From: Bacteroidales bacterium
GTDB taxonomy: Bacteria > Bacteroidota > Bacteroidia > Bacteroidales > UBA932
DNA: 64,000 nt
Assembly: GCA_017471045.1 (NCBI GenBank)
Contig: JAFUWZ010000052.1
Coordinates: 62,001-126,000 of the forward strand
Direction: 5' to 3'
Every line of letters starts with the position of its first letter. Position 1 is the stretch's first letter. Below the pieces are notes generated by a model. It ran no database searches. It had not been told where the DNA came from and worked only from the letters and a program-made list of their open reading frames with translations. Shown one piece after another: positions 3,673-19,970 of the stretch. A program made the position numbers and the translations under genes.

Positions 3673-5457
3673 ATGAAAAAGACTCTGTTTGCAACGCTTG
3701 CTTTCTCCGCCCTTGCCTCCGTCTCCGCCCTGGCGCAGACTTTCAATCCCAGGGTGGAAGTGGAAAATACCTACGAAGGAAAAATCGTCGAAGCCGGCAA
3801 GAACGTCCTTCCGATGAATGTCCCGGACTCCGTCTATAAGTTTCAGTACCAACTGGACTATTCCGTGTTTGACAATCCGTTCCGGGGATCCTATCAGTTC
3901 AAGCCCTACAAGATCGAGATGAGGCCCGATGCCGCTCCCTCCGAGGCCCGAAAATTGTTCGTCAGCCTCGGCGCCGGATGGAGCCTGCATCCGGAAGCGG
4001 ACGTCGTCTGGTCTCCGGCTTTCCGTACGCTTCCGGTCAAGATGAGCGTCTATGACCGTTTCCGCGGCTTCCTGGGTCATTACGGCCTGATGCCCTGGCA
4101 GGACGACTTCACGATCCTTTCGCATCCGACCCGCCCGCTCTCGGGCTACGTCCTGGACAACAAGGTCGGAGCCAATGTGCGCTACGAGTTCCCGAAACTC
4201 GCCCTGGAGGTGGACGGGGGCTATCGCAGCTTCTGGTCCCAGGATACGCTTTCCCGGCATTTCCTGCAGCGGGCCGAGGTGGAAGCCCGGCTCCTGCCCC
4301 TGGATCCCAACAAGGCGGATTATTTCTACGGCGGACGCATCTATGTCAAAGCCGGACAGGACCGTCTCTACTCGCTGATGTCCGACCGTCACAAACTGGG
4401 CGTCAACGACATGGGGGCCGACCTTCTCTTCGGGGTCCCGCTCGGGGCGCGCAGCCGCGTCCTGCTGGACCTGGGCGTCGAGTCCGAGGTCTATTCCGGC
4501 GTGCAGGAGATGTCGGCGACCCGCCTCTGGGCGACGCCGCACTATGAAATCCGCTGGAACGGCGGAAGCGCCGATCTGGGCGTCAAGGTCTCCTTCCTCA
4601 AGGGGAGTGACAACACCGATCATTACAAGTCCTATATCCGCTTGAACTCCAAGGCCTTCCTGCATAAGTCGGACATCATCTATCCGGCCGTCCAGGTCAA
4701 GCAGTTCCTCGTGCCCGGTCACCTGGCGGTCTATGCGCGCGCCGTCGGCGGCGACTGCCTCAACGATTATGTGGACCTGCTGGTCTCCAATCCCTTCACG
4801 GACCCGCTTGCCGTTTCCGACAACCTCGACTCCTCCTCGGAGCGGATCAACGCCTGCGTGGGCCTGGAAGGCGACATCGCCGGCCGTCTCCAGATCGACC
4901 TGCATGGCGGATATGCCGTCCGGCACAACTGGCGGGTGGATTGCGTCGAGTTTGTGGACCGTTTCTACAATGCCCCTTCGGAGGGCTGGAAAGGCCATTA
5001 CCTGTCTTCTTACTACAATTACTGCGACTTTAATGAGTGGTATGCCGACCTTTCCTTCCTGTGGAAATCCCCGCGGCTGGACATCGACGGGCATTTCCGC
5101 TTCCAGGATACGGACCTGATTCCCCGGGCGTACTACGGCGTGGCTCCTTCCCGCTTCAGCGGCGAACTGGAGGCGACGTTCAACTGGAACCGGCAGGCCT
5201 TCGCCGGGATTACGCTGGGGGCGGCTTCCCGCCGCAACGGCCTGGCTTACATTTCGGCTTCGAGCGAATTTCGCATCGACGCCCCCGTCCAGGTCCCCGG
5301 GTGGGTTGACTTGGGCCTGCATGGCCGTTACGTGATCAACCCCAGGTGGACGGTCTGGGCCAAGGCCGGCAATCTGCTCGGACAAAGCGTCCAGCGCTAT
5401 TTCCTGCATCCGGAAAAGGGCCCTTACGGGACCGTGGGAATCACTTTCAAATTATAA
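3673..5457 (+). CDS. Putative outer-membrane beta-barrel protein
   Basis: 594 residues with a clear signal peptide (MKKTLFATLAFSALASVSALAQ). The mature part alternates short polar/aromatic strands (for example VDLGLHGRYVINPRWTVWAK) and ends in YGTVGITFKL, as outer-membrane barrels do. I see no obvious plug domain or TonB box, although family members are often labelled TonB-dependent receptor. It follows the TPR gene by 16 nt with a strong SD, and gyrB begins 42 nt later. Function unknown; an envelope role with the TPR protein is inferred only from the gene pairing. Confidence 0.7.
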   Translation: MKKTLFATLAFSALASVSALAQTFNPRVEVENTYEGKIVEAGKNVLPMNVPDSVYKFQYQLDYSVFDNPFRGSYQFKPYKIEMRPDAAPSEARKLFVSLGAGWSLHPEADVVWSPAFRTLPVKMSVYDRFRGFLGHYGLMPWQDDFTILSHPTRPLSGYVLDNKVGANVRYEFPKLALEVDGGYRSFWSQDTLSRHFLQRAEVEARLLPLDPNKADYFYGGRIYVKAGQDRLYSLMSDRHKLGVNDMGADLLFGVPLGARSRVLLDLGVESEVYSGVQEMSATRLWATPHYEIRWNGGSADLGVKVSFLKGSDNTDHYKSYIRLNSKAFLHKSDIIYPAVQVKQFLVPGHLAVYARAVGGDCLNDYVDLLVSNPFTDPLAVSDNLDSSSERINACVGLEGDIAGRLQIDLHGGYAVRHNWRVDCVEFVDRFYNAPSEGWKGHYLSSYYNYCDFNEWYADLSFLWKSPRLDIDGHFRFQDTDLIPRAYYGVAPSRFSGELEATFNWNRQAFAGITLGAASRRNGLAYISASSEFRIDAPVQVPGWVDLGLHGRYVINPRWTVWAKAGNLLGQSVQRYFLHPEKGPYGTVGITFKL

Positions 5458-17997: not shown

Positions 17998-18771
17998 ATG
18001 AAAGAACAGCTCCATGTCGTCAAGGTCGGTGGCGCGGTGGTCGAGGATCCTGCGTCCCTGTCCGCGCTGCTTTCAGCCTTTGCCGCCCTGCCGGGGAACA
18101 AGGTCCTGGTGCACGGCGGGGGACGGGCGGCTACGCGGCTGTCGGAAGCCCTGGGGATCGAGTCCAGGATGGTCTCCGGCCGCCGGATCACCGACGACAA
18201 GACCCTGGAAGTTGTCACGATGGTCTATGGCGGACTGGTCAACAAGCGCATCGTCGCCGGGCTTCAGGCCTTGGGCGTCAATGCATTGGGCCTTACCGGA
18301 GCAGACCTCGGTTATATGCTCTCGGACAAGCGCCCCGTCGGGGAAATAGACTACGGCTGGGTCGGAGATGTCCGTGCGGTGGATATTTCCCTCCTGGCGG
18401 ATCTGGTCGGACGCGGCGTCGTGCCGGTGCTCGCGCCCTTGACCCATGACGGGCAGGGTCACCTGCTCAATACCAACGCGGATACGATCGCTTCTGCGGC
18501 GGCTCGTGCGCTGTCGGAGCGTTTCGACGTAAGGCTGACCTATTGTTTCGAGAAGGCGGGCGTCCTGGCCGACCCGGGCGACGAGGGGAGCGTGATCCCG
18601 CGGATCACGCGGGCGTCCTATGCGGACCTGGTCGCGGCGGGTGTCGTCTCCGGCGGAATGATCCCCAAGTTGGGAAATGCCTTCGATGCCCTTTCGGCGG
18701 GTGTTTCGCAGGTGCAGATTACCCGTGCGGACGCGTTGGATGCGTCGGCGGGGACCGTGGTGACATTATGA
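17998..18771 (+). CDS. argB: N-acylglutamate kinase
   Basis: 257 residues of the amino-acid kinase family; phosphorylates N-acyl-glutamate (second arginine step). The N-terminal VVKVGGAVVED and GGGRAATRLSEALG motifs bind phosphate and substrate; LLNTNADTIAS and GGMIPKLGNAFDAL are family features. It starts one base after the transcarbamylase stop and ends overlapping the argE ATG (ATGA). Like the other early enzymes here it probably handles the succinyl derivative. Confidence 0.93.
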   Translation: MKEQLHVVKVGGAVVEDPASLSALLSAFAALPGNKVLVHGGGRAATRLSEALGIESRMVSGRRITDDKTLEVVTMVYGGLVNKRIVAGLQALGVNALGLTGADLGYMLSDKRPVGEIDYGWVGDVRAVDISLLADLVGRGVVPVLAPLTHDGQGHLLNTNADTIASAAARALSERFDVRLTYCFEKAGVLADPGDEGSVIPRITRASYADLVAAGVVSGGMIPKLGNAFDALSAGVSQVQITRADALDASAGTVVTL

Positions 18772-19970
18772 TGGCTTTTGAAGAATATATCGACCTGCTC
18801 AGGCAGCTGATCGCGGTGCCTTCTTTCAGCCGGGAGGAGACGGCCGCCTGCGACGTGCTGGAAGCGTGGCTGCGCGCAAAGGCTTGCGATGCCGTCGGGG
18901 CGCAGTATCCCTTGAGGCGGGACGGCAACAACCTGGTCCTGGAGCAGCAGGGTCGGGGAGACGGCCGTCCGGTGCTCCTGCTCAATGCGCATATCGATAC
19001 GGTCCGGCCCGCTGCCAGCTACACCCGCGACCCTTTTTCGCCGGATCTGGAGGGGGATGTGTTGTACGGCCTGGGTTCCAATGACGATGGCGGCTCGCTG
19101 GTCGCCCTGCTGGCGGTTTACCTGCAGCTCGTGCAGACGGACCAGCCGTACCGTCTGATCTATGCGGCGACTTCCGAGGAGGAAGTCTGCGGCCGGGAGG
19201 GCATCGAGCGCATCCTGCCTTCGCTGGGGCCGGTTTCGCTCGGCATCATCGGCGAACCGACCCGGATGCAGATGGCCGTCGCCGAGCGGGGCTTGCTGGT
19301 GCTGGACTGCACGGCGCACGGCAAGAGCGGCCATGCGGCCCGGGGCGAGGGGGTGAATGCTATCTACGCGGCGTTGCCCGCGATCGAGTGGTTCCGGACC
19401 TTCCGTTTCCCGAAAGTTTCTCCCTGGCTTGGACCGGTGGGGATGAACGTGACGATGATCCAGGCGGGTACGCAGCACAATGTGGTGCCGGACACCTGCT
19501 CGTTCGTGGTGGATGTGCGCCCGAACGGGATGTACGCCAACGAGGAACTTCTGGCGCTCATTCGGGAGGCGCAGCCGGATATCGATATCAAGGCGCGCTC
19601 GACTCGCCTCGGCAGTTCGCATATCGCCCGGAGTGGTGGCAGCAGTTTCGCAAGCATAAGCACCTGCGCTTGTAGCGCGGGGGACCCAGCTTTGCTGGGG
19701 GGGCGAGGCCGTAAGGCCGAGGCAGGAGAAACTGCTGCCGTCACTCCGGGCGTGGAGGAGCACCCGGTCGTGCGGCGTGGACTGTCGCTGGGTCTGGAAG
19801 CCTTCGGCTCGCCGACTTGCAGCAACCAGACCCTCTGCGCCTTCCCGACCCTCAAGATCGGCCCCGGCGACTCCGCCCGCTCCCACACGGCAGATGAATA
19901 CATCCGTCTCTCGGAAATCCGCGGCGGGATTGATATTTATTTACGTTTGTTGGACCAACTGAAACTCTAA
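18768..19970 (+). CDS. argE: N-acyl-ornithine/citrulline deacylase ArgE (M20), carrying an in-frame palindromic insertion
   Basis: M20 metallopeptidase that removes the acyl group in the arginine pathway. 400 residues from the ATG overlapping the argB stop (a second ATG follows at 18771). Metal-site motifs are kept: NAHIDTVRP, GLGSNDDGGS, ATSEEEVCG and a C-terminal SARSHTADEYI. Residues about 287-328 (SSFASISTCACSAGDP...ETAAVTPG) have no counterpart in relatives, which as I recall are about 355 residues long. This block is encoded exactly by a 128-bp inverted-repeat element (19625-19752). The frame stays open through it, so the enzyme may still be active if the block loops out. argH starts 3 nt downstream. 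Confidence 0.9.
   Translation: MMAFEEYIDLLRQLIAVPSFSREETAACDVLEAWLRAKACDAVGAQYPLRRDGNNLVLEQQGRGDGRPVLLLNAHIDTVRPAASYTRDPFSPDLEGDVLYGLGSNDDGGSLVALLAVYLQLVQTDQPYRLIYAATSEEEVCGREGIERILPSLGPVSLGIIGEPTRMQMAVAERGLLVLDCTAHGKSGHAARGEGVNAIYAALPAIEWFRTFRFPKVSPWLGPVGMNVTMIQAGTQHNVVPDTCSFVVDVRPNGMYANEELLALIREAQPDIDIKARSTRLGSSHIARSGGSSFASISTCACSAGDPALLGGRGRKAEAGETAAVTPGVEEHPVVRRGLSLGLEAFGSPTCSNQTLCAFPTLKIGPGDSARSHTADEYIRLSEIRGGIDIYLRLLDQLKL
19625..19752. repeat. Palindromic element inside argE
   Basis: Two 25-nt arms, 19625-19649 and 19728-19752, are inverted copies differing at only 2 positions (GT versus AC in the middle). The 78-nt interior holds smaller hairpins: CCCAGCtttGCTGGG (19685-19699) and GAGGCCgtaaGGCCGAGGC (19705-19723). 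It is read through without a stop, adding about 42 codons to argE. No second full copy was found in the window. The form is like in-frame palindromic elements such as those of Rickettsia, but I saw no sequence kinship. Confidence 0.75.

Follow-up and report, generated by a model that had tools for sequence, protein, structure and literature searches.

Protein-coding palindromic elements are best known from Rickettsia, and Wolbachia has elements similar to them. In Bacteroidales, phase-variable invertible promoters are known in which a segment between inverted repeats can flip. The Rickettsia palindromic elements (RPE) are dispersed palindromes of ~100-150 bp, many of them in frame in conserved proteins and others intergenic, and one host enzyme was shown to stay active (PMC2229807, PMC10969869). 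A further source reports that RPE lose their repeat identity, and describes perfect inverted repeats that are kept in the protein genes of Nematomorpha mitochondria, for which template switching was proposed (PMC6649704).

Hairpin repeats of the GTAG and CGTC types (REPs) can also lie inside genes such as uvrA. GTAG-type REPs are associated with Y1/HUH (RAYT) transposases and CGTC repeats are also present in Bacteroidetes (PMC3733652), where Y1 proteins are described as linked in part to atypical hairpins (PMC6006769). Inverted repeats are reported to undergo template switching that homogenises the arms and inverts the spacer, coding genes included (PMC8604942), and that creates and maintains RNA hairpins (PMC8794818). 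Here we describe a palindrome in an argE gene of a Bacteroidales genome, found in a window of 64,000 nt (the whole stretch of DNA that was analysed), and the family to which it belongs.

The insert in argE

A preliminary description of this DNA had placed a palindrome with internal hairpins inside the argE reading frame at 19625..19752. The two arms were as described, 25 nt each and 92% complementary, with 78 nt between them. The features of the locus are as follows.

18768..19970, + strand: argE (acetylornithine deacetylase, M20 family) with the insert read in frame (ORF; Pfam; 3ct9 match)
19626..19751, + strand: inserted palindromic element, 126 nt = 42 codons (gap in orthologue alignments)
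19625..19649, + strand: left arm, P1 (inverted-repeat search; fold)
19656..19673, + strand: core hairpin P2 of the argE copy (alignment to family)
19663-19667, + strand: P2 loop of the argE copy, the 5' side of the family's pseudoknot (alignment to family)
19675..19680, + strand: 3' side of the pseudoknot in the argE copy (alignment to family)
19685..19699, + strand: core hairpin P3 (CCCAGC-TTT-GCTGGG) with G-runs on either side (fold; core pattern; family alignment)
19707..19718, + strand: hairpin P4 (GGCC-GTAA-GGCC) of the argE copy (fold)
19728..19752, + strand: right arm, P1 (inverted-repeat search; fold)

The argE frame was open through the palindrome with neither stop nor shift, in agreement with the preliminary description, and forms an ORF of 475 aa (18543-19970) without a stop throughout. 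Pfam matches to ArgE were Peptidase_M20 (71-396) and M20_dimer (171-267). As + strand RNA all 25 arm positions pair, two of them as G-U, around the internal hairpins. These hairpins are present in the computed RNA fold, which at -86.2 kcal/mol is 7.4 SD more stable than shuffled sequences (-55.6 +/- 4.1 kcal/mol, z -7.4, with 0 of 200 shuffles as stable). The structure-model match covered 19639-19739 with 40.6 bits. As compared to the family, the argE copy has one mismatched pseudoknot pair and an altered G-run before P3.

Using ArgE as query, a match was found in 93 of 101 same-genus genomes, many of the matches being other M20 proteins. The same-genus ArgE alignments break near query residues 287 and 330, leaving 42 extra codons (126 nt) here. 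The junction was readable in 22 of the 29 fetched same-genus argE-type loci (the window's own excluded): 21 were read by motif, which missed the other 7, and L159 was added to them. All 22 readable junctions have 3 residues between I/L and H as compared to 45 in the window's ArgE, so the block is absent from every orthologue read. The solved structure 3ct9 is uninterrupted at the insert point as well (query 6-286 and 330-400 align to 12-284 and 286-356). The preliminary estimate of about 42 residues added where relatives are continuous was therefore exact. Its extent of 128 nt is right for the palindrome. The inserted block itself measures 126 nt and fits best at 19626-19751, the outermost pair of the 25-nt arms probably being due to chance. 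No direct target-site duplication was recognisable at the argE insert in comparison to the orthologues. By DNA similarity the stretch and its arms matched only themselves in their own genome, giving no second copy and no other locus from which the arms would have been copied. The block is thus single-copy by DNA similarity, and the family emerges only with pattern and structure-aware searches.

A dispersed family in one genus

The argE block belongs to a dispersed family of palindromic DNA of ~90-145 bp in one genus of gut Bacteroidales, with copies both inside genes and between genes. Copies were gathered either with a core pattern or with a model in which paired arms raise the score. A DNA similarity search of 299 genomes of the host's taxonomic family gave two diverged copies and one match that is probably due to chance. 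One diverged copy adjoins a gene read from its translation as aspartyl-tRNA synthetase-like. The other lies inside the atpG frame and has the same core hairpin as the argE copy, with entirely different arms. L005 (SusD-like, with an arm-like match) was rejected as a family copy, as it is probably a chance match.

The core pattern gave 56 exact matches in 23 of the 101 genus genomes and the reversed control pattern gave 0. Arms, which the pattern ignores, were present in 27 of 32 loci examined after the core pattern and similarity search. In the public genome set at least 120 stretches matched; among the matches listed (80 titles) 73 were from Bacteroidales/Bacteroidia, many of them from ruminants, and 7 from Alphaproteobacteria. 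A total of 57 copies went into the covariance model R1 (55 of 60 listed, 5 near-duplicates being dropped, together with the window copy and L003). The model had matches in 89 of 101 genus genomes (E <= 0.01), with at most 39 candidates scored per genome, so that high counts are lower bounds. In the window's own genome, where DNA similarity gives one copy, R1 found 4: in argE, in a 668-aa ORF (the YgiQ-type site), in an 890-aa ORF, and outside any long spanning frame. Across the order, with at most 13 candidates scored per genome and stricter filters than in the genus scan, 6 of 295 genomes were positive at E <= 1e-5: besides the own genome, the matches came from two further genera of its family and from three families outside it. 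A pattern scan of viral contigs gave 0 matches, and a distant BLAST against plasmids and phages gave no match.

The 7 alphaproteobacterial matches (L039, L056, L067, L071, L080, L086 and L091) have a related-looking hairpin that is built differently. A P3-like unit, GGGAGGGGCCCA.C...G.TGGGAGGG, is also found in Caulobacter, Magnetospirillum and Rhodospirillales, and the alphaproteobacterial units adjoin a different hairpin (CCCTCTCCC...GGGAGAGGG) and are without long arms. In total 12 loci were excluded from the copy set because they were judged alphaproteobacterial, the record title deciding in 7 cases and architecture alone in 5.

Structure and covariation

The family is defined by its structure, that is by variable matched arms, P2 with a pseudoknot, a G-flanked P3 and P4, and not by arm sequence. 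From the outside in, an element has matched ~25-bp arms (P1) with inner ends of roughly AAACC/GGTTT, followed by P2 (about TGTGGCC/GGCCGCA), the loop of which (CCCTC) pairs with a downstream GAGGG to form an H-type pseudoknot. P3, CCC(N)GGG, lies between GGGAGGGG and AGGGG and is highly variable in stem and loop, and P4 is typically TCGC-GAA-GCGA.

Alignment A2 holds 61 copies (60 of 70 printed copies out of 104, with 10 dropped by eye as odd or near-duplicate, and L013). In it 92.5% of cells were standard pairs as compared to 70.9% when shuffled, and the covariation score was 0.566 versus 0.171 for shuffled and at most 0.136 for slid alignments. Double changes were seen at all 18 arm pairs. 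The pseudoknot helix was 100% paired, and 2 of its 5 pairs covary. Read on the G-rich strand, the loop is of the GNA type in 78 of 131 triloops of P3 and in 125 of 149 loops of P4; its complement, TNC, accounts for 10 of the listed P3 loops. Loops of the GNA type have unusual stability as DNA, a hint that the element folds as a single DNA strand.

Rfam 15 gave a best E of 0.13 for the window region, far under gathering, and among 14 loci searched at E up to 0.05 no element match was found, the sole result being a tRNA elsewhere. In some copies (for example L042, L104, L110, L120, L132, L133 and L143) P2 is separated from the G-rich hairpin by an additional GC-rich stretch, roughly 40-100 nt long.

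Arms and core of resident copies

Within a copy the left and right arms had an identity of 0.955 as inverted repeats (n=180 copies), and arms from different sites had 0.352 versus 0.252 when shuffled (n=180 copies). In the outer two thirds of the arms the identity between different sites was 30.6%, and 25 of about 16,000 different-site pairs had arms at least 80% alike. L302 and L313, on two contigs of G248, have arms that are 84% alike in unrelated flanks, showing that arms can travel with the element. The idea that arms are full inverted copies of their target was not supported, since different sites, such as these two, can carry similar arms.

At shared sites both arms change and yet remain matched, and relatives differ in the orientation of the core. 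Comparison of the flanks of 213 unique copies gave 111 same-site pairs, which are not independent of each other, with the core in the same orientation in 67 and in the opposite orientation in 44. In 104 arm columns both sides had changed with complementarity kept, in 9 both had changed otherwise, and in 47 the change was one-sided (21 left only, 26 right only); only pairs with at least 65% arm identity were counted, and identical arms add no columns. Sliding one arm by 1-3 columns gave 36-44 double changes versus 104. At a pbpC-type site (L030/L061) two pairs of the P4 stem had changed together.

The core appears to flip in place. The clearest flip is in atpG (L004/L152), where the flanks are 95 and 99% identical and the core is reversed, so that a different 37-38-residue peptide is encoded. 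The arms of this pair have one compensated change in 16 aligned columns and one uncompensated change just inside. A second flip is in ygiQ (L260/L268), with flanks 89 and 92% and arms 96% identical. We regard these two as the convincing inversions, as at low flank identity an inverted pair could represent two separate insertions.

L085 and L143 have flanks that are 99% identical over 265-283 nt and differ in arms, core variant and orientation; the palindromic symmetry continues outward into the flanks and the boundary is not exactly the same. A recent replacement is possible in this case. One YgiQ-type radical SAM site holds nine copies from different genomes and in both orientations (L110, L230 in the own genome, L240, L252, L257, L260, L268, L305 and L307), and may be either an ancient insertion or a tolerant hot spot.

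Host genes and reading frames

A stop-free frame of at least 250 aa contained 45 of 115 non-redundant copies, 16 in gene orientation and 29 in the opposite one. The criterion (at least 20 codons on both sides) is mechanical, so some frames may be spurious and the counts are conditioned on open ORFs. In 19 of 20 scanned insert-bearing proteins (the window's included) Pfam domains were found at E <= 1e-5, and in several cases the domain (M20, ATP-synt, S-methyl_trans, Formyl_trans_C) runs through the insert. The hosts were read as ArgE, UvrA, GH95 (x2), a UvrD-type helicase, a PBP1C-type protein, MetH, a YgiQ-type radical SAM protein, AtpG (x2), a THUMP-like protein, MurB, a TrmB-type protein, an EamA transporter, Fmt (x2), CarA, a Mur ligase and DapF.

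Between 0 and 6 of the six frames of an element are open, so openness is not automatic. Among 79 copies with long frames on both sides, 38 were in one common open frame and 41 were not. We printed 27 copies (24 loci) without a common frame, and in 12 of them the left stop codon lies 1-7 nt past the boundary, which places these copies directly behind genes and not in them. Among the remaining loci, some are spurious frames that overlap, and real truncations may account for a few. Checked copies in conserved genes read in frame and would be expected to add ~35-45 residues, predicted to be translated. Nine copies in opposite orientation share a PP-x-GPLPL-like peptide, and the other printed copies encode unlike peptides.

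Insertion sites and candidate transposases

Empty-site comparisons were readable in 3 of 15 cases, covering two insertions (L264 and L297), and in these (12 of the 15 comparisons being unreadable) no direct duplication was seen. At both insertions 5-8 nt at the outer end of one arm look like native sequence, and their inverse is present in the other arm. This may be an extension of the palindrome after insertion or a remnant of loss.

Genes for Y1_Tnp proteins were present in 78 of the 101 genus genomes, the own genome included, and their number correlated with copy number (rho 0.54 over 101 genomes, kinship ignored); the median was 1 copy without and 13 with such a gene. Among the 48 genomes at least 90% complete, the 9 without Y1_Tnp had 0-7 copies and the 39 with it had a median of 15. 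For DDE_Tnp_1 rho was -0.11 (101 genomes), and for RVT_1, found in 32 of 101 genomes and absent from the own genome, it was 0.01. The counts of Y1_Tnp, copies, DDE_Tnp_1 and RVT_1 were transcribed by hand into the correlation scripts. Exceptions to the Y1 link were G371, with 32 copies and a single weak Y1 match, one Y1-negative genome with 15 copies, and 4 of the 78 Y1-positive genomes with none. The Y1 proteins are RAYT-like, as 8 of 8 scanned match NF047646 best, all of them below its cut-off. No convincing element was found beside the Y1 genes in 12 loci with flanks of up to 1.5 kb, the one match (E 2.5) being at chance level. By eye, no recurrent neighbour gene was recognised as mobiliser among the 25 largest neighbour clusters; we think that the largest clusters are linked by the element-encoded peptide.

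Some other features were noted near these loci. The Y1 gene at L190 (genome G378) has its own hairpins of the CATAAGTCGATT type at both ends, like an IS200/IS605 element. Of the four copies in the own genome, L232 (5031-5108 on contig G000:C36) lies about 290 bases from a DDE_Tnp_1 match (4494-4745). A second dispersed repeat, about GAGATTCTTCACTTCGTTCAGAATGACAG, was seen in the flank of L238 (query 2114-2142) and had many matches, up to 100% identity, in several of 12 genomes. This repeat resembles the CGTC-type REPs.

Explanations for matched arms and spread

We infer that template switching accounts for the matching of the arms and the flipping of the core: DNA polymerase would switch template at the hairpin during replication. 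Less certainly, a RAYT-like transposase of the Y1 (HUH) type would act in trans and make new copies from one DNA strand. Such copying would be in keeping with the loop types favoured on one strand and with the absence of any direct target duplication that could be recognised. Surviving copies would be those in putative insert-tolerant protein loops or directly behind stop codons. Taken as one explanation, a dispersed palindromic family defined by structure, with template switching and a Y1 transposase in trans, is in our judgement probable; the Y1 step considered by itself is rather doubtful. A further-reaching version is put forward tentatively. In it the element is inherited as a shape and not as a sequence, only its compact core being conserved, and template switching continually rewrites the two arms in step; the hairpin of one strand would be moved by a RAYT-like HUH transposase in trans, and flipping would give each host protein two alternative inserts of 35-45 residues. 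The preliminary interpretation as a small mobile repeat tolerated within proteins is supported. Neither outcome named there as speaking against it occurred: the 22 orthologues read are without the block, and many further copies exist. Mobility is suggested by the dispersed copies together with the filled and empty sites.

Selection of each resident copy as a functional RNA (regulator, terminator or mRNA stabiliser) could also keep arms matched, and strong covariation in all four helices, the pseudoknot included, is what it would predict, as are the number of copies right behind stop codons. We nevertheless consider it unlikely. The copies sit at unrelated sites in housekeeping proteins, in both orientations and with no common transcript context, the loops favour GNA (stable in DNA) and not the usual RNA tetraloops, and Rfam had no match to the element in the 14 loci at E up to 0.05. 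The core also inverts at shared sites, and these flips would not be accounted for by RNA selection alone. A stable hairpin with paired ends and a pseudoknot, inserted as exactly 126 nt, might instead be spliced at the RNA level or bypassed by the ribosome to leave a normal protein, as in Magnusiomyces mitochondria; bypassed palindromic inserts are known (PMC6649704). This would need neither open frames nor multiples of three, whereas the checked conserved genes read through openly although 0-6 of 6 element frames are open and openness is not automatic. Moreover, 12 of the 27 printed copies without a common frame sit behind a gene and not inside it, and skipping appears most unlikely to us.

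As to how copies spread, the size, the terminal inverted repeats and the lack of a gene of its own would suit an ordinary MITE of a DDE insertion sequence. The terminal repeats are, however, hardly common to the sites (0.35 identity versus 0.25 shuffled), no direct target duplication was seen in the readable cases (argE, L264 and L297, with 12 of the 15 empty-site comparisons unreadable), the DDE_Tnp_1 count is uncorrelated with copy number, and inspection by eye of the 25 largest neighbour clusters revealed no transposase, all of which makes a MITE very unlikely. Reverse transcription of a folded RNA is the least probable of the explanations weighed. It would agree with the structured fold of one strand and with the argE site, where no direct target duplication can be recognised, but RVT_1 is present in only 32 of 101 genomes, is missing from the own genome and has a rho of 0.01 with copy number.

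Comparison with known systems

With 89 of 101 sampled genomes of one gut Bacteroidales genus positive and many core enzymes as hosts, tolerance, translation and the persistence of palindromes in coding DNA become testable at scale. The paired arm changes and core flips seen among related species provide a record of template switching in nature. They also carry a warning: RNA function is usually argued from strong covariation, which can also arise at the DNA level. No earlier description of the family was found in the literature searched, which covered few subscription papers.

The likeness to RPE that had been proposed is supported by in-frame copies in conserved genes together with intergenic copies. 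The phylum is a different one, and the comparison is one of behaviour and not of RPE sequence. Whereas RPE are said to lose repeat identity (PMC6649704), the arms described here differ at nearly every site and still stay matched, and the core inverts at shared sites. A conserved encoded peptide was reported for RPE, while here the PP-x-GPLPL-like peptide is common to the nine opposite-orientation copies and not to others.

Intragenic GTAG/CGTC REPs resemble the element as hairpin repeats of which some lie inside genes (PMC3733652), but here long arms surround a multi-hairpin core. A GTAG (or GTRG) foot before the hairpin is absent, P3 being preceded by GGGAGGGG in the alignments. A REPtron arrangement was not found, with no convincing copy flanking the 12 Y1 genes within up to 1.5 kb. 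The coding palindromes of Nematomorpha mitochondria are similarly kept in protein genes, but they consist of the host genes' own coding sequence, in contrast to a dispersed family with a conserved core. The inverted repeats shaped by template switching in yeast genes and RNA hairpins share arm homogenisation and spacer inversion with the element (PMC8604942, PMC8794818); the yeast spacer inversions, as given there, changed 2-5 bases and the core here is about 60-80 nt. In comparison to the invertible promoters of Bacteroidales, no shared recombination site was seen and the repeats differ between sites. The palindrome in argE is confirmed, and the preliminary reading of it, upheld in kind, extends to a family of protein-coding palindromic elements with structure-defined, self-matching arms and an invertible core.
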